DNA from: Serinicoccus marinus DSM 15273 | GTDB taxonomy: Bacteria; Actinomycetota; Actinomycetes; Actinomycetales; Dermatophilaceae | NCBI RefSeq assembly: GCF_008386315.1 | Contig: NZ_CP043808.1 | Span: 1,364,001 to 1,428,000 of the forward strand | Direction: 5' to 3' | DNA length: 64,000 nucleotides | In this document: positions 38,957 through 55,425 of the stretch, in pieces | Layout: each line of letters begins with the position of its first letter | Numbering within the stretch: the first letter of the stretch is position 1 | Translations under genes and position numbers: made by a program | The notes under the pieces: model-generated | Database searches by the model: none | Seen by the model: only the letters and a program-made list of their open reading frames with translations | What the model was told of the DNA's origin: nothing

Positions 38957-39577
38957 ATGAGCACCAAATCAGCACCGGCGGGTCGATCTCTGGACGAGGA
39001 GATGTATCGGCGACTGTTTGAGCGTCGAACGCTGCTCCTGGGCGAACCGCTGGAGGACTGGAACGCCAACCGCTTGTGCAATGGCCTGCTCTTGCTGGCC
39101 GTCGAGAACCCGGCCGCGGACATCAGGCTACTCATCAACTCACCCGGCGGCTCGGTGCCGGGCATGCTCGCGATCCGCGACTGCATGCGAGCGATCGGGA
39201 ATGACGTGGTCACAGTCAACGTCGGCATGGCCTACAGTGCCGGTCAGTTCCTGCTGTCCTCCGGCACCCCGGGAAAGCGGTTCGCGATGCCACGCTCCAA
39301 GGTGCTGCTGCACCAGGGGTCGGCCGGCATCGGTGGCACGGCAATGGACATCGCCATCCAGGCCGACGACCTGCGGCATACCCGGGACACCGTCCTGAGC
39401 CTGATTGCCGAGGACACCGGTCAGGACGTGACCACCGTGGAGCGCGACTCGCGGCGGGACCGATGGTTCGATGCGCACGAGGCGATCGACTATGGGTTCG
39501 TGGACCACGTCATCGACAACATCGACCAGGTGATGCCGGTCGCCAGCCGGCCGGTCGGCCTCGGAGGACGTCCATGA
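38957..39577 (+). CDS. clpP: ATP-dependent Clp protease proteolytic subunit-like protein (first of pair)
   Basis: A 206-residue serine peptidase of the ClpP fold. The nucleophile is Ser in [16 protein letters not shown], the His is in [11 protein letters not shown], and the third residue is probably Asp in [35 protein letters not shown] is the conserved substrate strand. The motif around the serine (YSAGQ) differs from the usual ASMAA of housekeeping ClpP, so this is a divergent accessory copy. Its stop overlaps the next clpP start (ATGA), suggesting a hetero-oligomer. Confidence 0.88.
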
Positions 39578-40175
39578 GCAGCTACCCCATCCCCTACGTC
39601 ACCACCCGCACCCACCAGGGAGAGCGCACGGTCGACATCTACTCCAGGCTGCTCGCCGACCGGATCGTCTACCTCGGCACCCCGATAGACGACGGGGTCG
39701 CCAACGCGATCATCGCCCAGCTCATTCACCTGGAGTCCGACGATCCAGACCAGCCGGTCCAGCTCTACATCAACTCCCCGGGCGGCTCGATCCCCGCGAT
39801 GCTGGCGATCTACGACGCGATGCAGTTCGTGCGGGCGGAGGTTCACACCACCTGCGTGGGACAAGCTGCCTCCACGGCGGCTGTGCTGCTCGCCGGTGGC
39901 GAGGCCGGGCGTCGGGCGATCCTGCCGCACGGCAGGGTCGTCATCCACGCGCCTGCCGCCGAGGGACGAGGCGCGATCCCCGACCTGATTCTGGAGGCCG
40001 ACGAGGTCGAACGGGTCCGCACCATGCTCGAGGAGGTGCTTGCCACTCATACCGGCAAGCCACGAGAGCAGATCCGGAGGACACCGAGCGCGACTTGATC
40101 CTCACTGCAGAGGGGGCCGTGAACTACGGCGTCGTCGACGCCGTCTACACCAGCCGCGTCAGCAATGGCGAGTGA
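39574..40175 (+). pseudogene. clpP: ClpP-like protease subunit (second of pair), one frameshift
   Basis: ClpP fold with Ser in [17 protein letters not shown], His in [11 protein letters not shown] and the family segment [20 protein letters not shown] at the end. One G appears to be missing near 40078, so the uncorrected frame stops at 40098 and loses the Asp and the last helix. Restoring it gives about 200 residues. Twin clpP genes form mixed tetradecamers in many actinomycetes, which fits this pair. Confidence 0.85.
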
Positions 40176-41760: not shown

Positions 41761-42106
41761 GCGGCATGAGAGTAAGGCCCGGAGTCTGTGCGTCGCTTAA
41801 CCATCTGGAGTATGTCGAGACGGGCGTGATCGCGCAGTCGCGTTAAGACGAGGGCACAGTGGCCGGCCATTTGCCCTCCTGACGGGCCGTGATGTGAGGA
41901 TTGGGGACATGAAGACCGTCATCCTTGTCTTGCTCGCCCTCTGGCTCGTGTTCGCCGTCCTCGGGGCGGTGCTCGAGGGTCTGCTCTGGTTAACGATCAT
42001 CGGCCTCGTGGCCTTCGCGGCCACCGCCGCCTGGGGCTGGCTGAAGCTGCGCCGCTGACCGCACGACACAACTACATGCAGGCTGCTATTGGACGCGCGG
42101 GTCGCG
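41761..42106. repeat. long direct repeat, left copy (346 bp)
   Basis: Identical to 47532-47877 except for three visible substitutions, in the same orientation, 5771 bp apart. It starts GCGGCATGAG directly after a 29-bp repeat unit and ends GTCGCG. It includes a complete small membrane-protein gene and its upstream region. Confidence 0.95.
41909..42058 (+). CDS. 49-residue hydrophobic protein, left copy
   Basis: Starts MKTVILVLLALWLVFAVLGA and ends WGWLKLRR. It is almost entirely two transmembrane helices with a basic C-terminal anchor, like short hydrophobic proteins found across actinomycetes. GAGGA lies about ten bases upstream. The protein is identical to the one encoded at 47680-47829. 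Confidence 0.75.
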   Translation: MKTVILVLLALWLVFAVLGAVLEGLLWLTIIGLVAFAATAAWGWLKLRR

Positions 42107-42791: not shown

Positions 42792-42915
42792 CGCGCTGGG
42801 CGCAGGCCACAAATGGTGTCCGACCCGAAGTTGCCGCTCGGCGGCAGAAGAGGATGCTTTTCGCGTGCTCCCGTGAGCTGTCGCGACCCCGACTTCCCGC
42901 GATTTGACCGACCAC

Positions 42916-43803
42916 CTATTCCTGGTTTGGGTCTGCAAGGGAGAGGGCCTGGATGACCGCGCTGATGGCGGGGCGGCTTTGGCCGCCGGTGCGGGTGGCG
43001 GTGAACACGCGTCGACGCGGCCGTCCCGGCAGTGGAATGATCCGGACGGCTGGCCGTTGGGCGGCCTCGGCCAGTTGCGGGAGCAGTGCGGCTGCGAGCC
43101 CGTTCTCGACCATGCGTAGTTGCACCTGCAGGTCGGTCGTGGTGATGAGCACGTCGGGTTCGAACCCGGCCTCTCGGCAGGCCCGGACGGCCCACTCGTG
43201 CGCCGGGGTTCCTGGCGGCTCCATGGCCATCGGACGCCCCGCCAGGTCGCTCAGCCGAACTTCACCCCAGCCCCGGGGCACGATGAGGTGCAGTCCGTCG
43301 GTGAGCAGGTCCTCGCGGGTAACACCGAGAGTGCGGGGCAGCGGATGTCCGGGGTACTCCTCAGCGAGCACCAGGTCGTAGTCGCCGCCCGCCAGCGTCG
43401 GCAACGACACGTCGGGCTCGAGCTCGGTGACCTCCACCCGCAGGTCCGGGTGCCGCCCGCGCAGGTCGATCAGGGTCGGGGGCAGCAGCGCCAGCACCGC
43501 GCTCTGGAACGCTGCCACCCGCACTCTCCCCGTCACCTCAGCGCCCAGTGCTGCCAGCCCCGCCTCCGCGCGCTCGAGCTCGGCCAGCAGCCGCACCGCG
43601 TGCGTGACGAGCAGCTCGCCCGCCGCCGTCAGCCGCACGCGCCGCCCGACCGGCTCCAGCAGCGCGACCCCGGCCTCCTTCTCGAGCGCGCCGAGCTGGG
43701 AGGAGACCGTCGAGGGGCTGTAGGACAGCGCCTGCGCGACCGCGCCGACCGTGCCGCGGCGCGAGAGCTCGACGAGCAGCCGCAGGCGTCGCAGTTCCAG
43801 CAT
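42916..43803 (-). CDS. LysR-family transcriptional regulator
   Basis: A 295-residue regulator. The winged helix is LRLLVELSRRGTVGAVAQAL, then SYSPSTVSSQLGALEKEAGV. The periplasmic-binding-like effector domain follows. It diverges from the diaminopropionate ammonia-lyase gene with a LysR-type box between them, so it is the probable activator of the three-gene catabolic operon. Confidence 0.92.
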   Translation of the reverse strand: MLELRRLRLLVELSRRGTVGAVAQALSYSPSTVSSQLGALEKEAGVALLEPVGRRVRLTAAGELLVTHAVRLLAELERAEAGLAALGAEVTGRVRVAAFQSAVLALLPPTLIDLRGRHPDLRVEVTELEPDVSLPTLAGGDYDLVLAEEYPGHPLPRTLGVTREDLLTDGLHLIVPRGWGEVRLSDLAGRPMAMEPPGTPAHEWAVRACREAGFEPDVLITTTDLQVQLRMVENGLAAALLPQLAEAAQRPAVRIIPLPGRPRRRVFTATRTGGQSRPAISAVIQALSLADPNQE

Positions 43804-43823
43804 GTCCCCACCTCGCAGCCGAT

Positions 43824-43840
43824 GTTCGGGTATGCCGAAC
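43824..43840. promoter_or_regulatory. LysR-type operator in the divergent promoter
   Basis: GTTCGG and its complement with a five-base spacer, including a T-N11-A core (T at 43826, A at 43838), lie between the LysR gene and the ammonia-lyase gene. The spacer contains a GGTATGCC word. Confidence 0.6.
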
Positions 43841-43899
43841 GGTTTCGTGCGATTCTAGGCGCTAGACGTGGACGGTTGCTGGCGCCGAGACTGGCCGGT

Positions 43900-44967
43900 A
43901 TGACGTCCTGGTACAGCAACCCTGCCGCGCGGCACCGGTCCATGCCCAACGAGGCGTCGGGCGCGGCGCGGGAGTTCCACCGCACACTGCCCGGTTACCA
44001 GCCCACCCCGTTGGTCGACCTGCCCGCCATGGCTGCCGAACTCGGTGTAGGCCGTGTCCTGGTCAAGGACGAATCGTCGCGGCTCGGGCTGCCCGCGTTC
44101 AAGATCCTGGGTGCCTCGTGGGCCTGTCGGCAGACACTGGAGCACCACCCCGGCGCGCGCCTGGTCACCGCCACAGATGGCAACCACGGTCGGGCGGTCG
44201 CCCGGACGGCCCGCGAGCTGGGCACTGCGGCGACGGTCTTCGTCCCCGACGTCATGCTCGAGAGCACCGCCGCGCGCGTCGTGGACGAAGGTGCGCAGGT
44301 GGTCCGGGTCGACGGCGACTACGACGTGACCGTGCGTGCCGCGGCCGCGCACGCCGACGCCGACCCGGGCCGCGAGCTGGTGCAGGACACGGCCTGGGAC
44401 GGCTACGAGCAGGTGCCGCAGTGGATCGTGGAGGGCTACCGGACGCTGCTCGCCGAGGTCGACGAGGCGCCCGGTCGGAAGCCGGACCTCGTCGCGGTGC
44501 CGGTCGGCGTCGGGTCCCTGGCGCAGGCCGTGGTCGAGCACTACCGCAGTGGTGAAGCACCGCACGCCGTGACGTCCCCAGCGGGCAGCGACGTCTACCC
44601 CACACGTGTGCTGTCCGTCGAGCCCGACACCGCCGCGGGGCTGCTCGCGAGCCTGCGCGCCGGCACACCCGTGCCGGTGCCGACCGCCTCGACCGTCATG
44701 GCCGGCCTCAACTGCGGCACCGTCTCCAGCCTCGCCTGGCCGGTGCTGCAGCGCGGCTGCGACGCCGCCGTCGCCGTCACCGATGAGGCGGCGCTGGCCG
44801 CATCTCGCGACCTGGAGACACTCGGCGTCTCCTCAGGCCCGTGCGGCGCCGCCACCCTGGCCGGGGTCCGCGCTGCGCTCGCCGACCCCGGCCGGCGTAC
44901 CGACCTCGACCTCCCCCAGGACGCCGTCGTCGTCCTGCTTTCCACCGAAGGACTGGACTCCGCATGA
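43900..44967 (+). CDS. diaminopropionate ammonia-lyase-like PLP enzyme
   Basis: A 355-residue fold-type II PLP enzyme. The Schiff-base lysine is in ESSRLGLPAFKILGASW. The catalytic stretch TATDGNHGRAVARTARELG and the phosphate-binding region VPVGVGSLAQ follow. The pattern matches diaminopropionate ammonia-lyases (YgeX type), which turn 2,3-diaminopropionate into pyruvate and two ammonia; serine/threonine dehydratases are the nearest alternative. ATG 43900 gives MTSWYSNPAA. Its stop overlaps the next start (ATGA). Confidence 0.85.
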   Translation: MTSWYSNPAARHRSMPNEASGAAREFHRTLPGYQPTPLVDLPAMAAELGVGRVLVKDESSRLGLPAFKILGASWACRQTLEHHPGARLVTATDGNHGRAVARTARELGTAATVFVPDVMLESTAARVVDEGAQVVRVDGDYDVTVRAAAAHADADPGRELVQDTAWDGYEQVPQWIVEGYRTLLAEVDEAPGRKPDLVAVPVGVGSLAQAVVEHYRSGEAPHAVTSPAGSDVYPTRVLSVEPDTAAGLLASLRAGTPVPVPTASTVMAGLNCGTVSSLAWPVLQRGCDAAVAVTDEAALAASRDLETLGVSSGPCGAATLAGVRAALADPGRRTDLDLPQDAVVVLLSTEGLDSA

Positions 44968-46270
44968 GCAACGCCAACCCCACGACTGCCACGACCCTGC
45001 GCATCGACCGCGACCGGCTCTGGGCCCGCTCATGGAGCTGAAAGCGATCGGCGCCTACCGCGACGAGGCCACCGGCCTGGACGGTGTGCGCCGGCTGGCG
45101 CTGACCGACGCCGACGCGCAGGCCCGTCGTCGGGTGGTCGAGTGGATGCTCGAAGCCGGGCTGGAGGTGCGCGTTGACCGGATTGACAACGTCTACGCCA
45201 CCCGCCCCGGCAACGACCGCTCCCTGCCGTGCGTGCTCATGGGCTCGCACATCGACACGGTCGCCACGGGCGGGGCGTTCGACGGGACGCTCGGCGTGCT
45301 CGGCGGCGGCATCGAGGTCATTCGCACGCGCGACGAGGCCGGGGTGCAGACGCTGCGCGACGTCGAGGTCGGCTTCTCCACCGAGGAGGAGGGCGTGCGG
45401 TTCGGCACCGACATGCTCGGCTCGGCCGTCACGGCCGGCCGCATCCCGATCGAGCACGCCTGGCAACTCACCGACAACGACGGGAAGAGCGTGAAGGAGG
45501 AGCTGGAGCGGATCGGCTTCGACGGGCCCGCGCACGAGCTGCGCCCGGTCCCGCACGCCTACGTCGAGTGCCACATCGAGCAGGGACCGATCCTCGCGGA
45601 CGCCGGGGTGAGCGTGGGCATCGTCGGCGGCGTGCAGTCCATCTCCTGGCAGCGGCTGACCGTGCACGGCGAGGCCGCGCACGCCGGGACCACGCCCATC
45701 GGCTCGCGGCACGACGCCGGGCTGGTCGCCGCGCACGTGGTCGTCGAGGCACGGCGGATGTGCGACAGCGGCGACTACGGGCAGCTGCGCGCGACCGTCG
45801 GCACCTTCGACATCGGCGGGGGTCAGACCAACGTCATCCCGCACCACGCGATGCTCACCATCGACCTGCGCAACCCCGACGACGGGCAGATGACCCGCGC
45901 AGAGAAGGACCTGGCGGCCTACGTCGACGCCCTCGCCGAGCAGCACGGCGTGCGCGTCAAGTGGGAGCGGATGGCCAAGACCGCGATGGTGCCCTTCGAT
46001 GCCGGCGTCCAGGACCTGCTCGACGGGACAGCCGACGACCTCGGACTGGCCTACGTGCGGGCGATTAGCGGGGCAGGGCACGACGCCCAGGAGATCGCCG
46101 CGACCTGCCCGACCGCCATGGTCTTCGTCCGCGGCGAGCACGGTGGCATCAGCCACACCCCACGCGAGTACTCCACCCCCGAGTCCTGCGGCGACGGCAC
46201 CGACCTGCTCGCCAACGCCATACTCCGGCTCGCCAACCAGGCTCCCGACCACACCGCCGACCCGCGCTGA
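44964..46270 (+). pseudogene. N-carbamoyl-L-amino-acid hydrolase-like M20 enzyme, frameshift at the N-terminus
   Basis: A di-zinc hydrolase of the AmaB/allantoate amidohydrolase type, about 435 residues. Zinc ligands are in GSHIDTVATGGAFDGTLGVL, FSTEEEGVRFG, VECHIEQGP and GEHGGISHTPREYS. The first 21 codons (MSNANPTTATTLRIDRDRLW) are in another frame; one base is missing at about 45026. It would remove a carbamoyl or ureido group from an amino acid, possibly supplying the lyase encoded upstream. Confidence 0.85.
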
Positions 46271-46278
46271 GGCGCACC

Positions 46279-47451
46279 ATGGACCTCCTCCTCGACACCG
46301 CGCTCGACGCCCGCCCGCGCGCCTGGCGCCACCACCTGCACCGCCACCCCGAAACCGCATTCACCGAGCACACGACCGTCGACTACCTGGCCGGCGTACT
46401 CGAAGACCTCGGGTATGACGTCGCGCGCGGCATCGGTGGCACCGGAGCCGTCGCCTCGCTGACCCACGGCACCTCCGGACGGGCGGTGGGCCTGCGCACG
46501 GACCTGGACGCCCTGCCGATCCAGGAGGTGGAAGGCCGTGAGCACGGGTCGGTCAACGCCGGGGTCATGCACGCTTGCGGGCACGACGGACACATGGCCA
46601 TGGTCCTCGGCGCGGCCGCAGTGCTGGCCGAGGAGGGCGGCTTCGACGGCACCGTCCGCCTGGTGCTGCAGCCGGCCGAGGAACCCGGTCGGGGCGCGCA
46701 GGCGATGCTGGACGACGGGCTGCTGGAGCGCTTCCCGCTCGACGTGCTCTACGGGCTGCACAACCTGCCCGGCCTGCCGGCCGGTCACCTGCACGTGCGG
46801 CCGGGCGGGATCATGGCCAGCGAGGACAACTTCACGATCACCGTCCACGGCCGGGGCGGTCACGCCGCCCGGCCGGAGGCCGTCGTCGACCCGCTGGTCG
46901 CCGGGGCCGAGATCGTCCTGGCCCTGCAGACGGTCGTCGCCCGCAACGTCGACCCCGTGCACCCGGCGGTCGTCTCGTGCACCGGCTTCGAGACCGACGG
47001 CGCACGCAACGCCATACCCTCCACCGTGCGGATCACCGGTGACACCCGGAGCTTCCATCCACAGGTCCAGGAGCTGCTCGAGCGACGGATCCGCGAGGTC
47101 GCCACCGGGGTCGCTACGGCGCACGGGGCGCGGGCAGAGGTGACCTACACGCACGAGTTCGCTCCCACGATCAACGACCCCGAGGTCACGGAGCGTACGA
47201 TCGCCGCCGCCGTCGCCGCGCTCGGCGCCGACCACGTCGTCGGTCATTGCGACCCGATCATGCCGAGCGAGGACTTCGGCATCCTCGCCCGCCACGTCCC
47301 CGCGTGCTTCGCCCTCCTCGGCAACGGCACCGAGCCCGGCCGGGGCGGCACCCCGCTGCACAGCGCCGACTACGACCTCAACGACGACATCCTGCCCTCG
47401 GGCGTCGCGTTCTACGTCCACGCCGTCCGAACCGAGATACCAGCAACATAG
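46279..47451 (+). CDS. M20-family metallo-amidohydrolase
   Basis: A 390-residue aminoacylase/hippurate hydrolase-type enzyme. Zinc ligands and the catalytic Glu are in MHACGHDGHMAMVLGAA, VLQPAEEPGRGAQAML, GLHNLPGLPAG and DPIMPSEDFG. The dimerisation domain starts near VHGRGGHAARPEAVVDPL. It would cleave an N-acyl group from an amino acid. It is the last gene of the three-gene operon, which resembles the ygeX-ygeY-hyuA neighbourhood of enterobacteria. Confidence 0.92.
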   Translation: MDLLLDTALDARPRAWRHHLHRHPETAFTEHTTVDYLAGVLEDLGYDVARGIGGTGAVASLTHGTSGRAVGLRTDLDALPIQEVEGREHGSVNAGVMHACGHDGHMAMVLGAAAVLAEEGGFDGTVRLVLQPAEEPGRGAQAMLDDGLLERFPLDVLYGLHNLPGLPAGHLHVRPGGIMASEDNFTITVHGRGGHAARPEAVVDPLVAGAEIVLALQTVVARNVDPVHPAVVSCTGFETDGARNAIPSTVRITGDTRSFHPQVQELLERRIREVATGVATAHGARAEVTYTHEFAPTINDPEVTERTIAAAVAALGADHVVGHCDPIMPSEDFGILARHVPACFALLGNGTEPGRGGTPLHSADYDLNDDILPSGVAFYVHAVRTEIPAT

Positions 47452-47531
47452 GCAAACTCGCCTTCCTCTCGAACGCACAGGAACAGGTGACGCGCCCGCC
47501 CCGATTCGGTCCAGATGCAGGATTTCGCCAC

Positions 47532-47877
47532 GCGGCATGAGAGTAAGGCCCGGAGTCTGTGCGTCGCTTAACCATCTGGAGTATGTCGAGACGGGCGTGA
47601 CCGCGCAGTCGCGTTGAGACGAGGGCACAGTGGCCGGCCATTTGCCCTCCTGACGGGCCGTGATGTGAGGATTGGGGACATGAAGACCGTCATCCTTGTC
47701 TTGCTCGCCCTCTGGCTCGTGTTCGCCGTCCTCGGGGCGGTGCTCGAAGGTCTGCTCTGGTTAACGATCATCGGCCTCGTGGCCTTCGCGGCCACCGCCG
47801 CCTGGGGCTGGCTGAAGCTGCGCCGCTGACCGCACGACACAACTACATGCAGGCTGCTATTGGACGCGCGGGTCGCG
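47532..47877. repeat. long direct repeat, right copy (346 bp)
   Basis: Second copy of 41761-42106, same orientation, three substitutions. It starts 81 bp after the M20 amidohydrolase stop. Here GCGGCATGAG is not preceded by a full 29-bp repeat unit. Confidence 0.95.
47680..47829 (+). CDS. 49-residue hydrophobic protein, right copy
   Basis: Encodes the same protein as 41909-42058; the only coding change (GAG to GAA) is silent. Two helices and a C-terminal KLRR. The in-frame open sequence extends upstream, but only ATG 47680 has a ribosome binding site (GAGGA). Confidence 0.75.
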   Translation: MKTVILVLLALWLVFAVLGAVLEGLLWLTIIGLVAFAATAAWGWLKLRR

Positions 47878-48701: not shown

Positions 48702-48738
48702 TTTGGGCCGGCGTTCGGTACGCCCGGACGCCCCACTC

Positions 48739-48890
48739 GCGGCAGTAGCGTGCGGACCACGCTCAGTGCGGCAGTAGCGTGCGGCCACGCTCAGTGCGGC
48801 AGTAGCGTGCGGACCACGCTCAGTGCGGCAGTAGCGTGCGGACCACGCTCAGTGCGGCAGTAGCGTGCGGACCACGCTCAGTGCGGCAGA
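48739..48890. repeat. tandem array of five 29-bp hairpin repeats
   Basis: Units at 48739-48767, 48768-48795 (28 bp, one A missing), 48796-48824, 48825-48853 and 48854-48882, then a partial GCGGCAGA. Each unit starts GCGGCAGTAGCGTG and ends CACGCTCAGT. Inside is a 6-bp stem (AGCGTG/CACGCT) with a five-base loop. There are no spacers, so it is not a CRISPR array. The same unit recurs at 41732, 53567, 54336 and 55061. Confidence 0.95.
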
Positions 48891-49140
48891 TGAGGGCGTT
48901 CGAGCCCAAGGTGACGGGGCCCTGGGCACAGCACAAGCTTCCGATGCGCATCGTCGAGCAAGGCGAGTCAGTTTCACCTGGCCGTGCTGCCGCCTCAGTA
49001 GGCTTGTGCGGCCGCCGACTGAAAGGGTCGGTGGGCGTCAGGATGGAGCGTCGGGTTGCGTTTGTACAGTGTGGCTTGGCCGCAGCAGTTGACCCTTGCA
49101 CGCGTCGAGTTGCGCAGGAGGGTCTGAGGAAAGGGCGAGT

Positions 49141-50157
49141 GTGAGCTTTCGCGGGATCATCATCGAGCAGGATCTGCAGGCTGGCCGGATCCAGGATCAC
49201 CGTGCTGAGGTCACTGACCTGTCCGAGAGTCTGCTTGTGGGCTCGGGGGGTGATGAGCCTGTCGACATCGACGTCATGTATTCGGGTCTGAACTACAAGG
49301 ACGGGCTGGCGATCGCGGGCAGGCCCGGGGTCGCGAGGATTTCGCCGCTGATCCCGGGCATCGACCTGGTGGGTCGGGTGTCGGCATCGAAGGATGCGCG
49401 CTTCGCGCCTGGCGAGACCGTGGTCCTGACCGGCGGTGGCATCGGTGAGTCAGCGCACGGCGGGCTCGCGACGAGGGCGCGGGTCTCCGGGAACTACCTG
49501 CTCGCCCTGCCCGAAGGCGTCAGCGCCCGGCAGGCGGCGGTCATCGGGACTGCCGGCTTCACCGCGATGCTCTCGGTCCTCGCCCTGGAGCGGGAGGGCG
49601 TCGCCCCGGACCAGGGGCCAGTGGTCGTCACGGGTGCCAGCGGTGGCGTGGGATCGGTCGCCGTCGCCGTCCTCGCGCATCTGGGGTTCGAGGTGGTTGC
49701 TGCGACGGGACGCGTCGACAGCGAGGGGGACTACCTGCGTGGGCTCGGCGCCTCGCAGGTCCTGGACCGTCGCGAGCTCGCCGACCCTGGCCCGGCGCTG
49801 CAGAAGCGACGTTGGGCCGGAGGCGTGGACACCGCAGGTTCGCACACCCTGGTCAACCTGCTAGCCCAGACCAGGGACGAGGGCGTCCTCACGACCTGTG
49901 GTCTGGCCCAGGGCCCGGATCTTCCGGGCAGTGTCATGCCCTTCATCCTGCGTGGGGTGAGCTTGGTCGGCATCAACTCCGTGACCGCATCCCGCGACCT
50001 GCGGCAGCGGGCGTGGAGGCGTCTGGCCGACGATCTGAGCAGCGACCTGCTCGAGACCATGACCAGTGAGATCTCGCTCGATGAGGTGCCGGCCCGAGCC
50101 GAGGACATCCTGCAGGGCCGTGTGCGCGGGCGCACGGTGGTCTCTGTGCAGGGCTGA
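49141..50157 (+). CDS. acuI: acrylyl-CoA reductase-like MDR enzyme (AcuI/YhdH family)
   Basis: A 338-residue NADPH-dependent reductase without zinc. VMYSGLNYKDGLAIAGRPGV, FGLATxx-like GLATRARVSGNYLLALPEG, TAGFTAMLSVLALE and VVVTGASGGVGSVAVAVLAH are typical of AcuI/YhdH, which reduces acryloyl-CoA to propionyl-CoA. The product removes toxic acrylate made by DMSP lyases. I chose GTG 49141, which has GAGGAAAGG upstream. It is followed after 15 bp by a DMSP-lyase-like gene, the usual acuI-ddd pairing. Confidence 0.88.
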   Translation: MSFRGIIIEQDLQAGRIQDHRAEVTDLSESLLVGSGGDEPVDIDVMYSGLNYKDGLAIAGRPGVARISPLIPGIDLVGRVSASKDARFAPGETVVLTGGGIGESAHGGLATRARVSGNYLLALPEGVSARQAAVIGTAGFTAMLSVLALEREGVAPDQGPVVVTGASGGVGSVAVAVLAHLGFEVVAATGRVDSEGDYLRGLGASQVLDRRELADPGPALQKRRWAGGVDTAGSHTLVNLLAQTRDEGVLTTCGLAQGPDLPGSVMPFILRGVSLVGINSVTASRDLRQRAWRRLADDLSSDLLETMTSEISLDEVPARAEDILQGRVRGRTVVSVQG

Positions 50158-50172
50158 GGAGGTGTCACGGGG

Positions 50173-50838
50173 ATGGGCACATCACGGCTGAACGAGCATC
50201 CGGACCTGAAGTACACGATCAGTGACTTCGACGCCCTCTACCGGTATGGCTCGGCCGGTGGCAGCCGCCCCATCCGCACACACATGCGCCGGGTGCGCGA
50301 GACCATCGCCGACGTCCTCGAGGACAACCCGGAGGTCCTCGAGCGAGAGCCCGCTCGCCTGCCGGTGGTGAACCACCTCGGCCGGGCGCTGGACCTGGGC
50401 TCACGTGGCGACCTGAACACGCTCAGCGACTCGCTGCGCCGGATCTCGGACCGGCTGACCTGGGAGCAGGGATACGAGAAAGTCCCACGGGGTCTGTCGA
50501 GCAAGTACGGCTACTGCGAGGTGGTCGGCCCCCGGGGGCCCGTGCTGACCGACCGCATCGTGCTGGGACTGGTGCTCTTCGCGCCCGAGACCGTCTACCC
50601 CCAGCATCACCATGCAGGCATCCAGGAGTCCTACGTCGCGATCGCCGGTGGGTGGTCGGAGAACGACGCCGCCGTGCACGCCCCTGGTTCGCTGATCCTG
50701 AACGAGGCAGGACAGGAACACCGCATCACGACCGGGCGCCAGTCACCGTGCCTGCTGGCGTACTCGTGGCTCGGGCCGCCCGAGCGGCTGACCACCCCGG
50801 CCATGCGCTTCTCATCCGCACGCCGTCGCACCCCGTAG
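50173..50838 (+). CDS. dddL: dimethylsulphoniopropionate (DMSP) lyase, DddL-like cupin
   Basis: A 221-residue protein of the DMSP-lyase cupin family, which splits DMSP into dimethylsulphide and acrylate. The N-terminal helical part (DALYRYGSAGGSRPIRTHMR, then WEQGYEKVPRGLSSKYGYCE) leads to the cupin. Cupin motif 1 is FAPETVYPQHHHAGIQESY, with the metal histidines, Glu and the Tyr expected for catalysis. Motif 2 is NEAGQEHRITTG with the last His. ENDAAVHAPGSLILNE fits DddL as I know it. Adjacent acuI strongly supports the role. A GAGGAGG site precedes ATG 50173. Confidence 0.8.
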   Translation: MGTSRLNEHPDLKYTISDFDALYRYGSAGGSRPIRTHMRRVRETIADVLEDNPEVLEREPARLPVVNHLGRALDLGSRGDLNTLSDSLRRISDRLTWEQGYEKVPRGLSSKYGYCEVVGPRGPVLTDRIVLGLVLFAPETVYPQHHHAGIQESYVAIAGGWSENDAAVHAPGSLILNEAGQEHRITTGRQSPCLLAYSWLGPPERLTTPAMRFSSARRRTP

Positions 50839-50959
50839 ACCGAAGCGACAGCCACGCGGACAGGTGACGTCGATCATCGACGTAGCGCGCGTAGCCCACT
50901 GCGGTGGAGGTCGAGGCACGCGGCTGACGCGGCACCGGGCGGGGAGGTACGTTCAGGGC

Positions 50960-51499
50960 GTGGAGCAGCGACGGGTGGTCCTGGTGCGCGCGGTCAACGT
51001 CGGTGGCACCGCGACGTTGCCGATGGCGCTATGGCGGGACCTGGCGGCCTCGCTCGGCGCGTCCGACATCGTGACCTACATCGCATCCGGCAACATGGTG
51101 TGCTCGGTCCCGGGGGATGGCCAGGCCTTCGACCGCGGCCTCGAGCAGGCGGTCGAGCAACGCTGCGGGTTCTTCCGTGGGGTCGTCAGCCGGACACCGC
51201 AGGAAGTCGCCGCAGCGCTGGAGCAGCACCCCTTCGAGATCGTCGACCCCGCCTTCTCCTACGTCTGCTTCCTCAATGCCGAACCCACCGAGGAAGCAGT
51301 CGCTGCGGCTCGCGAGCTCCCGACGGGCGAGGGCCGGTGGCACATCATCGGTCGCGAGATGCACCTGAGGTATGCCCGTGGCGCCGGCCGACCCCAGATG
51401 AGCGACGCGGCCATCGGGAGAGCGCTCGGCGTGTCAGGCACCGCGCGCAACCTCAGGACGGTGCGCAGGCTCATCGACCTGGCGGGCCGCACGCCCTGA
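50960..51499 (+). CDS. DUF1697-family protein
   Basis: A 179-residue protein. VVLVRAVNVGGTATLPMALW, then SDIVTYIASGNMVCS and SYVCFLNAEPT follow the DUF1697 pattern (normally LLRGINVGG...YIQSGNVVF). The C-terminal ARNLRTVRRLIDLA matches the family's usual ending. Function unknown. I chose GTG 50960 because upstream codons do not fit the family. Confidence 0.85.
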   Translation: MEQRRVVLVRAVNVGGTATLPMALWRDLAASLGASDIVTYIASGNMVCSVPGDGQAFDRGLEQAVEQRCGFFRGVVSRTPQEVAAALEQHPFEIVDPAFSYVCFLNAEPTEEAVAAARELPTGEGRWHIIGREMHLRYARGAGRPQMSDAAIGRALGVSGTARNLRTVRRLIDLAGRTP

Positions 51500-51695
51500 G
51501 CCGGCCACGTCGGGCGCCCACGCGGGCTGACCGCCGCCCTCTGGGTCGGTGGGGGATCTCTGCGGCACCGGGGCGTCCGGACGGTGCACGGTGAACGTGC
51601 CGGACGAGGAACCCGCCTGGGTCACGCTCACGCCCTGGGCGGGGCCCGTCAGGCACCACCCACCGGCTGGCGCTCCGCGGCATTTCCGGGTGTCC

Positions 51696-51850
51696 TCAGG
51701 ATGCGTCGCCGAGTTTGCGGATGACGTTCTGGTTGAGGCTGAGGTGCTCTTCGGCTGCCTTCGTGGCGAGTTGCCGGTGGGGGCGTTCACCGACGCGGAG
51801 ATGGAATCTTCCTGCATAGGTGCAGGACGATCAGGCGCGGACCGCGGCTC
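51696..51850 (-). pseudogene. C-terminal remnant of a HicB-type antitoxin
   Basis: On the minus strand, GRFHLRV, then RQLATKAAEEHLSLNQNVIR and KLGDAS before the stop is the ribbon-helix-helix tail of a HicB-family antitoxin. There is no start codon. Upstream, the sequence runs directly into the 3' end of the integrase gene, so its N-terminus was lost at that junction. Confidence 0.5.
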
Positions 51851-51852
51851 TG

Positions 51853-52782
51853 TCAGGTGCCGGAGGCCATGTAGGCGGCGAGGATGTAGTTGGGATGTCG
51901 GTCGAGGTTCGTGCGGGCCCGGTCATACCGCATGGTGGTGCGGGGGTCGGCGTGGCGGGCCGCGATCTGGACGTCTCGCAGGTCCACGCCGGCGTCGAGC
52001 ATGGTGGTGACGAAGGTGTGCCGGAGCATGTGCGGGTGCATCCGCGGCAGGTTGATGCCTGCGTCGTCGGCCAGGTGATGCAGCCGTCGGGTCGCGGCGT
52101 GACGGTCCATCCGACCGCCCTGCCGGTTACGCAGGACCGGACCGTCTACACGGCTGTCGACGGAGCGTTCGATCGCGCGCTGCACCGCTGGCGGCAGGGG
52201 CGTCAGGACGACCTTGCCTCCCTTGCCGCGGACCTTCAGCACCCGGTGCCCGTGCTCCTCGCGCAGGTCGTCGATGTTGGCGCCACACGCTTCGAAGATG
52301 CGAAGTCCCAGCAGCCCGAGCATGCAGACCAGTGCGAAATCGTTGATGTTGCTGCTGACCCTTGCTGCCTGGAGCATCGCTTCGAACTGCAGATGGGACA
52401 GGCCGAGAGTGGGTGATTCGGGTGGCACGTGCGGTCGCCGGACGTGGTCGGCTGGCGAAGAAGGTAGGACACCGTCGATGACTGCGGTGCGGTAGAACCC
52501 GATCACCACGGACAGCCGCCGCGAGATGGTCGCCGGCTTGTATCCGCGCGTCTCCTGCATCCACCGCACGTAGAGCTCGACGTGCACCCGGTGGACGCTC
52601 AACGGGTCCAGGTGACGTTCGGCGCACCACCTCATGAAGGCGCGCAGGTCCGACTCTGTGTGGGTGCGCGTCTGCCCGGTGTATCGGGCCAGGTGCGCGG
52701 CTATCGCCTGGCGCAGCGCAGCACCGCCCGGGTTGTCAGTCGAGACGGGAACGAGCGCGGAGGTGATCTGGAAGGTGTTCAT
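51853..52782 (-). CDS. tyrosine recombinase (XerD/phage-integrase family)
   Basis: A 309-residue site-specific recombinase. The N-terminal SAM-like core-binding domain spans about residues 15-110 (RAFMRWCAERHLDPLSVHRV). The catalytic set is visible: Arg in LLGLRIFEACG, Lys in VRGKGGKVVLTPL, His-x-x-Arg in HPHMLRHTFVTTML, His in ARHADPRTTMRYDRA and Tyr in the same segment. Its own 3' end abuts a hicB remnant. It probably belongs to a mobile element or integron-like insertion that brought the downstream toxin-antitoxin pair. Confidence 0.93.
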   Translation of the reverse strand: MNTFQITSALVPVSTDNPGGAALRQAIAAHLARYTGQTRTHTESDLRAFMRWCAERHLDPLSVHRVHVELYVRWMQETRGYKPATISRRLSVVIGFYRTAVIDGVLPSSPADHVRRPHVPPESPTLGLSHLQFEAMLQAARVSSNINDFALVCMLGLLGLRIFEACGANIDDLREEHGHRVLKVRGKGGKVVLTPLPPAVQRAIERSVDSRVDGPVLRNRQGGRMDRHAATRRLHHLADDAGINLPRMHPHMLRHTFVTTMLDAGVDLRDVQIAARHADPRTTMRYDRARTNLDRHPNYILAAYMASGT

Positions 52783-54295: not shown

Positions 54296-54335
54296 ACGCC
54301 GACGGCCCAACATCGCGAAGGTGCCCGAGCGGCCA

Positions 54336-54486
54336 GCGGCAGTAGCGTGCGGCCACGCTCAGTGCGGCAGTAGCGTGCGGACCACGCCCAGTGCGGCAGT
54401 AGCGTGCGGACCACGCCCAGTGCGGCAGTAGCGTGCGGACCACGCTCAGTGCGGCAGTAGCGTGCGGACCACGCTCAGTGCGGCAG
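54336..54486. repeat. tandem array of five 29-bp hairpin repeats (second array)
   Basis: Units at 54336-54363 (28 bp, one A missing), 54364-54392, 54393-54421, 54422-54450 and 54451-54479, then a partial GCGGCAG. Units two and three share CGCCCAGT in place of CGCTCAGT. Each can form the same 6-bp stem. The array sits between the kinase-like gene and the leftward SRPBCC gene. Confidence 0.95.
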
Positions 54487-54524
54487 AAGAGCGCGCTGGC
54501 GTGACGCGTCGAAGACAGGGTGCC

Positions 54525-55016: not shown

Positions 55017-55060
55017 GTCGCCATCCTCCCCCATAAACTACGGGGCGGGGCAACCGACCG

Positions 55061-55089
55061 GCGGCAGTAGCGTGCGGACCACGCTCTAT
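55061..55089. repeat. 29-bp hairpin repeat, single variant copy
   Basis: One unit ending CTCTAT instead of CTCAGT, followed by GCGGCATGAG, the same junction word that begins both long direct repeats. Confidence 0.8.
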
Positions 55090-55425
55090 GCGGCATGAGC
55101 GTGACGGACAGCAAACGGGCTGGCGAGGGCCCTTGGTCAGCCTGTGCACCTGCGTCAAATGCATCGACCATCTCCCGGCTGCAAGTTTGGGCTTGTGCGT
55201 GGGGCTTCTGATCGGGGCGGGTAGCCATCTCCAACTAGCGACCCTGCCGATCGACCTCATCAGACAGGAAGATTCGCCCGGGCGCATCCGCTGGACCCAC
55301 CAAGCGTCGTGGTCAATGACGCCTGCGGCAGGGGCCGTCTCTTCAACGCGATGCGGGCGACACGATGGCGGCTTTGCTGGATCCGATCGCAGCCTGAGCC
55401 GCGCCTCGTGGGCCAGAATGTCCCT

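Follow-up and report, generated by a model that had tools for sequence, protein, structure and literature searches.

Does an actinomycete carry genes for the cleavage of DMSP, and how did such genes come to lie in its chromosome? Through the release of dimethyl sulphide (DMS) from DMSP, organisms send a large flux of sulphur into the air. The question is raised by a gene pair within a stretch of 64,000 nucleotides from Serinicoccus marinus DSM 15273, called the window in the following; all coordinates refer to it. The genes concerned are:

49141..50157, + strand: acuI, acryloyl-CoA reductase (YhdH/AcuI, MDR family), GTG start, TGA stop, 338 aa
50158..50162, + strand: GGAGG, likely ribosome-binding site, abutting the acuI stop, 10 nt 5' of the dddL ATG
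50173..50838, + strand: dddL, cupin DMSP lyase gene (PF16867), ATG start, TAG stop, 221 aa
50960..51499, + strand: gene of a DUF1697 protein (PF08002 107.1 bits, read from 50864)

The original prediction of an AcuI/YhdH gene, followed after 15 bp by a cupin gene with lyase motifs, was borne out by the coordinates and the profile searches. According to the ORF coordinates, acuI and dddL are separated by 15 bp and share a reading frame. They probably form a two-gene unit with translational coupling, which we presume to be expressed. A sigma-70 scan, a weak test in actinomycetes, found no promoter for the pair.

By sequence the cupin is a DddL-type DMSP lyase with predicted activity, which adds one more member to a known family of enzymes. 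It matches the Pfam family DMSP_lyase (PF16867) with 147.8 bits (E 3.1e-43, cut-off 27) over essentially the full length of the profile (positions 2–162 of 162). NCBIfam gave no match at E ≤ 0.001. The identity to a protein of Cereibacter sphaeroides named DddL (P0062) is 62% over 214 residues, and that to five source-named DddL proteins among the matches listed is 59–62%; some of the relatives are already called DMSP lyase family by the automatic annotation of the source. A DddL that is 46.98% identical to Sulfitobacter DddL was functional in E. coli (PMC6309047). The motifs YPQHHHAGIQESY and GQEHRI correspond to residues 142–154 and 180–185. H145, H147, E152, Y154 and H183 are invariant across 32 aligned DddL sequences and align with H, H, E, Y and H in 4b29 and in DddQ chains, so that the metal and tyrosine positions are kept at this level. 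A PDB search with the cupin returned four distinct sequences at E ≤ 0.001, every one named DMSP lyase or DddQ; the DddQ chains are far weaker matches (23–27 bits), so that, with the identities above, the cupin groups with DddL. In line with what we take to be the roles of these residues in cupin lyases, H145, H147, E152 and H183 would bind the metal and Y154 would take part in cleavage.

Cupin lyases are promiscuous, and the protein could instead be a DddL-fold enzyme for another β-substituted substrate, with slight or absent DMSP cleavage. PF16867 indeed has matches at E ≤ 0.001 in 21 of 186 genomes of the family (above the cut-off in six); four are full-length (138.1 to 148.5 bits), and the other 17 genomes contain partial cupins of 28.3 bits and below. 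Likewise, none of the four BCCT transporter genes of the genome adjoins dddL. We nevertheless regard another substrate as unlikely, given the 62% identity to a proteobacterial DddL, the conserved active-site positions, the full-length profile match and the adjacency to acuI as in Rhodobacter (Cereibacter) sphaeroides (PMC3017554).

The reductase contains the Pfam domains ADH_N and ADH_zinc_N of the MDR family. Its score against the acrylyl-CoA reductase family TIGR02823 is 386.3 bits (cut-off 297.25). The narrower AcuI equivalog model NF051456 gave 422.4 bits and its cut-off of 440 was missed by 17.6 bits; we therefore file the enzyme under the AcuI/YhdH family and not as the equivalog. Its best PDB matches are YhdH and AcuI structures, and it is the sole AcuI match of the genome at E ≤ 1e-15.

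DMSP is taken up by BCCT or similar carriers. Based on these assignments we propose the following pathway. After import, DMSP would be cleaved by DddL to DMS and acrylate. A putative CoA ligase would convert acrylate to acryloyl-CoA, which AcuI would reduce to propionyl-CoA. In this way carbon would be gained and a toxic intermediate avoided. AcuI has been proposed as a protection against acryloyl-CoA (PMC3338564), and R. sphaeroides uses acuR-acuI-dddL for its DMSP pathway (PMC3017554). The earlier statement that the pair yields dimethyl sulphide and propionyl-CoA is thus retained for the AcuI step, whereas DddL would stop at acrylate and a separate CoA ligase is required. Neither a CoA ligase nor a regulator was recognised among the genes neighbouring the pair, and no DMSP-specific transporter was identified. 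A marine or saline host is plausible, considering the relationship to Serinicoccus and the four BCCT transporters.

In the sampled genomes dddL is rare and patchy. At E ≤ 1e-20 we found it in one of 394 sampled genomes of the class (the present one) and in three of 396 of the order. Named actinomycetes among the best 120 of 933 protein matches are Aeromicrobium sp. CnD17-E (86%), Pseudonocardia alni subsp. carboxydivorans (85%), Corynebacterium sp. USCH3 (76%) and Phycicoccus flavus (69%). Genome contigs (six loci) add Serinicoccus kebangsaanensis (91%) and Phycicoccus avicenniae (67%). As of 2018, Gram-positive bacteria had no known functional ddd gene, according to PMC6309047; in the same source, DMS was formed from DMSP by Actinobacteria, including an isolate of Phycicoccus, and one Microbacterium contained no more than a weak dddD-like gene. 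A 2021 paper stated that all known lyase genes are absent from these DMS-producing actinobacteria, and reported DddX in Firmicutes (PMC8163506). According to a review of 2026, the hosts of ddd genes are Alpha- and Gammaproteobacteria (PMC13360808). S-methylation was described in 2025 as another source of DMS in Actinomycetota, for a strain without ddd genes (PMC12904073). Within the listings and passages of the open-access literature searched, we found no report of DddL in Actinomycetota. This host group of the enzyme is little recognised. The actinomycete clade with its two Phycicoccus members provides a candidate lyase for some of the DMS-releasing marine Actinobacteria.

To place DddL we used a careful, unrooted tree of 41 DddL rows, 18 of them without a taxon name and none of them DddQ, DddW, DddK or DddY. 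A single branch (support 98/91, present in 200 of 200 bootstrap trees) splits the seven named Actinomycetota from the 16 named Pseudomonadota. This tree supersedes a quick first one of 129 rows with outgroups on branches of length 10, in which the named actinomycetes needed four label changes against all others, mostly unnamed rows. The 88 rows left out include L004, L006, L007 and both outgroups. A tight clade (100/99) unites the window protein with those of S. kebangsaanensis, Aeromicrobium, Pseudonocardia and Corynebacterium and with one metagenome protein. Its genera are spread over four orders (Micrococcales, Propionibacteriales, Pseudonocardiales and Mycobacteriales), which points to transfer among Actinomycetota. 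These data support the view that DddL represents an actinomycete lineage that moved between orders and spread within the phylum.

AcuI also groups with actinobacterial reductases; its nearest named relatives are those of Actinomycetaceae bacterium L2_0104 and Leucobacter (74%). In the AcuI tree (30 rows) the dddL-linked reductases of Nisaea and SC52 are placed apart from the window AcuI. The label of dddL linkage needs at least two changes on this tree, and a single change was sufficient in 0% of 200 bootstrap trees. One of the rows labelled as linked is a metagenome AcuI (P0122, 82%), labelled so on a hint: its C-terminus, MSRLKDHPDFT, looks like the start of a DddL. Most simply, there would have been two separate acuI-dddL pairings, an actinomycete and a proteobacterial one.

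The same pair in marine Alphaproteobacteria could suggest a direct acquisition of the operon from that source. It occurs in R. sphaeroides (PMC3017554), and acuI lies upstream of dddL in two of the three proteobacterial loci with readable upstream DNA (Nisaea L005 and SC52 L070, not L004). The pairing had been called well known in marine Proteobacteria; it does occur there, but in 2012 it was known from R. sphaeroides only, according to PMC3338564. Both DddL and AcuI fall with actinomycete proteins and not with the proteobacterial pair, which makes a direct transfer of the latter unlikely. The window AcuI is only 51% identical to the dddL-linked SC52 AcuI over 317 residues, and the GC3 values of the pair (83.5 and 86.9%) lie inside the span of the eight genes of the region (69.7–94.4%). 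Transfer of the operon with a later replacement of acuI is possible, but a direct proteobacterial origin as such appears very improbable. Of the transfer originally proposed, signs of mobility and a spread within Actinomycetota are left, together with the supported position in an accessory region of a high-GC actinomycete.

In S. kebangsaanensis (L002/L040) the lyase is 91% identical to that of the window. The DNA match starts 36 nt before the acuI end, with the first 18 nt identical, and spans dddL (636 of 722 columns). No acuI (E ≤ 1e-10) and no core site of the type described below (> 10 bits) was detected in the 20 kb read at this locus, nor in the 20 kb at each of the Phycicoccus loci L041 and L042; the window has both. 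The remnant of the acuI end suggests that acuI was once present in S. kebangsaanensis and was then probably lost. The cassette setting is consequently known from the present genome alone, and the pair was found in no second actinomycete genome. Plasmid- or phage-borne dddL was also considered and rejected: tblastn against plasmids gave three records, all from Alphaproteobacteria with less than 60% identity, and phage records and viral contigs contained no DddL relative.

The pair is located downstream of what had been described as a tandem array of hairpin repeats. The array is real (11 copies of a 29-nt unit in the window at up to three mismatches, none in shuffles), but its nature is different: it consists of recombination sites that border the pair. 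The core site comprises 28 bp with two inverted 11-bp arms around a 6-bp spacer, GCGGCA. The 29-nt unit is composed of the spacer, the right arm, one base and the left arm, i.e. of back-to-back sites with no gene between them. The sites and the segment that they delimit are:

48728..48899, + strand: six back-to-back 28-bp core sites (the former hairpin array), left border of the cassette; starts at 48728, 48757, 48785, 48814, 48843 and 48872 according to the site model
48883..51676, + strand: acuI-dddL-DUF1697 cassette, from the spacer GCGGCA at 48883 to just before the spacer at 51677
51666..51693, + strand: core site, right border of the cassette, 21.1 bits
53556..53612, + strand: two core sites (site model)
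54325..54496, + strand: six back-to-back core sites (site model)
55050..55106, + strand: two core sites, end of the dense array (site model)

The core site was derived from 14 recombinase loci including the window (up to 8 kb each). On the 5' side of the recombinase gene, there are 152 occurrences of GCGGCA on one strand and 63 on the other, and the consensus around it shows the two inverted arms. A site model of 28 positions was trained on the 13 other loci (114 sites; 112 + and 2 − above 12 bits), with the window left out. It found 26 + and one − sites above 14 bits in the window, compared to a mean of 0.3 in 20 first-order shuffles. At the same threshold there are 12 + and no − sites in a second cluster of the genome (L039) and 8 + and no − in G118 (L043). 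Eleven recombinase loci of other genera contain 30 + and no − sites above 10 bits, a count given without a shuffle baseline; L079, L080, L085 and L086 contribute five each and the remaining seven one or two. Five of these loci (L082, L083, L086, L087 and L088, one genus from another family of the order) mostly have the spacer GCGGGA instead of GCGGCA. The spacer may follow the lineage of the recombinase.

The 24-nt core of the repeat has 14 matches in the genome, all on the + strand and in two clusters, and the 29-nt repeat occurs in three of 31 congeneric genomes. A loose core pattern with one mismatch was not specific genome-wide (15 and 3 in the own genome, 6 and 3 in controls; 181 of 186 genomes matched) and is not relied on. 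A search for multi-copy, species-specific repeats beside the recombinase in other genomes was abandoned, as k-mer counts revealed few of them; the site model resolved the matter. The second cluster (G000:C1:250001-269000) lies about 1.14 Mb away and contains transposase-like ORFs and no recombinase. Two neighbouring ClpP protease genes (39002–40098) are found directly ahead of the array in the window. After it, from 58448 onward, follows a gene encoding a DNA gyrase C-terminal domain; in L056 and L067 the same stretch is 5–8 kb away from the recombinase, and the array may therefore occupy a fixed chromosomal place.

The sites at the two ends of the acuI-dddL-DUF1697 cassette score 24.5 and 21.1 bits; inside it, neither strand has a site above 9.5 bits. 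Among the compared loci, the acuI-dddL segment was not found duplicated or as a cassette in another genome. That it moved as a cassette itself is what we infer from the behaviour of other segments, in the first place from two copies within the window:

41761..42103, + strand: 343-bp cassette, copy 1, encoding a 54-aa hydrophobic protein, 99.1% identical to copy 2 over its full length
47532..47874, + strand: 343-bp cassette, copy 2, 99.1% identical to copy 1

The identity of the two copies runs from site to site, and their 60-bp flanks are unlike. The second cluster contains two copies of a 665-bp cassette (99.4%), and G116 contains one (92%). In L058, two cassettes, 594 and 617 bp long, each occur in two copies of 100% identity with their order swapped, and a 331-bp cassette is common to L061 and L063 (95%). 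About 300 bp at a site in L056 are missing exactly there in L067. In total we counted 106 segments between consecutive sites above 12 bits, with lengths of 60–6000 bp and a median of 698. The association was also seen in 61 shared BLAST segments that had been chosen independently of the sites, with a minimum length of 150 bp and located outside the recombinase. Of these, 23 begin and 20 end within 30 bp of a site; for the starts, 1000 draws of random places gave 4.1 on average and 11 at most. More than half of the 61 do not end at sites; several of these are long and repeat- or backbone-like. A large site-bounded segment of the window (42841–47531) encodes a PLP enzyme (PF00291) together with two M20 hydrolases, and may be a unit for the catabolism of amino acids or amides.

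Next to the acuI-dddL cassette we found a candidate for the mover, together with a toxin-antitoxin pair:

51853..52782, − strand: XerD-like tyrosine recombinase, candidate cassette mover, PF00589 93.3 bits
52945..53250, + strand: RelE/ParE-type toxin, TIGR02683
53229..53543, + strand: antitoxin, TIGR02684

The best NCBIfam models for the recombinase are tyrosine recombinase, XerD and XerC, none above its cut-off. Relatives of 88–92% identity and near full length occur at nine places in eight other congeneric genomes, and at E ≤ 1e-40 the recombinase is present in 18 of 31, the present one counted. In eight of 13 congeneric loci it resides in a site-bounded segment of 1.65–1.71 kb and in one in a segment of 2.46 kb; none was found in four. 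The segment of the window also contains the toxin-antitoxin genes, and its right border is decayed (GCGGCA at about 52860, below 9.5 bits). About 520 bp that are present 3' of the recombinase in relatives are missing from the window unit (51806–51852). The enzyme is expected to act on the core sites, where it would excise and insert cassettes, probably by exchange in the GCGGCA spacer.

Tandem 29-nt hairpin copies recall REP elements, and the GCGGCA sites could be dispersed repeats of this kind, or IS ends, with no part in gene movement. Two repeat-bearing genomes (G118 and G119) indeed gave no match to the recombinase at E ≤ 1e-40. Such repeats would hardly explain the near-single orientation, the 11-6-11 geometry with its inverted arms, the cassettes duplicated or shared exactly from site to site and the difference between L056 and L067 at a site. 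Nor would they account for the recombinase being site-bounded in several genomes and accompanied by sites in other genera. We thus consider this explanation quite unlikely and return to recombination sites. Taken together, it is probable that the locus contains a DMSP-cleaving pair of actinomycete lineage inside a core-site cassette moved by the XerD-like recombinase. The cassette array is the more surprising part of this result; it suggests how DMSP genes may spread in Actinomycetota. In the open-access titles and abstract openings searched we found no description of such an array.

The closest known counterpart of the pair is the acuR-acuI-dddL operon of R. sphaeroides, in which acuI is also directly 5' of dddL and the enzymes are homologous (DddL 62%). 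That operon includes acuR (PMC3017554), whereas no acuR-like regulator is present in the cassette. The window pair further differs by its actinomycete AcuI and DddL lineages and by its cassette setting.

The array itself can be compared with integrons and with dif modules. As in integrons, cassettes of the same direction lie next to a gene on the opposite strand that encodes a tyrosine recombinase. Integron attC sites contain the boxes RYYYAAC and GTTRRRY. Within 40 bp of 161 core sites above 12 bits these are mostly missing (GTTRRRY at 13, RYYYAAC at 9). An integron with a folded attC, suggested by the 29-nt hairpin, was rejected for this reason and in view of the inverted arms round a fixed spacer at the 152 + strand GCGGCA places, which identify the hairpin as two arms of neighbouring sites. 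Integron integrase models also fit the recombinase worse than XerC/XerD models (TIGR02249 57.1 bits with a cut-off of 265, PRK15417 38.7 with a cut-off of 435). Unlike in integrons, cassettes are found on both sides of the recombinase, which is itself site-bounded in several genomes. No complete integrons were found in Actinobacteria, according to PMC9024848.

The core sites share their geometry with the second system and are presumably unlike chromosomal dif. In the dif modules of Acinetobacter (pdif, XerC/XerD), 28-bp sites with two 11-bp arms and a 6-bp centre accompany adaptive genes (PMC6449649). The sites of the window have the same 28-bp, 11-6-11 layout. Flanking sites of dif modules are inversely oriented, however, whereas 26 + sites face a single − site here; the near-constant spacer GCGGCA and the XerD-like recombinase encoded within the array are further differences. 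The array thus resembles both integrons and dif modules and fails a defining feature of each. We lean towards the view that acuI-dddL is a passenger of an undescribed Actinomycetota platform with direct 28-bp sites, a near-constant spacer and a XerD-like recombinase that is itself a cassette. If this is true, the platform would spread metabolic traits, DMSP cleavage among them, and would functionally correspond to the integron in a phylum from which complete integrons are reported to be absent.
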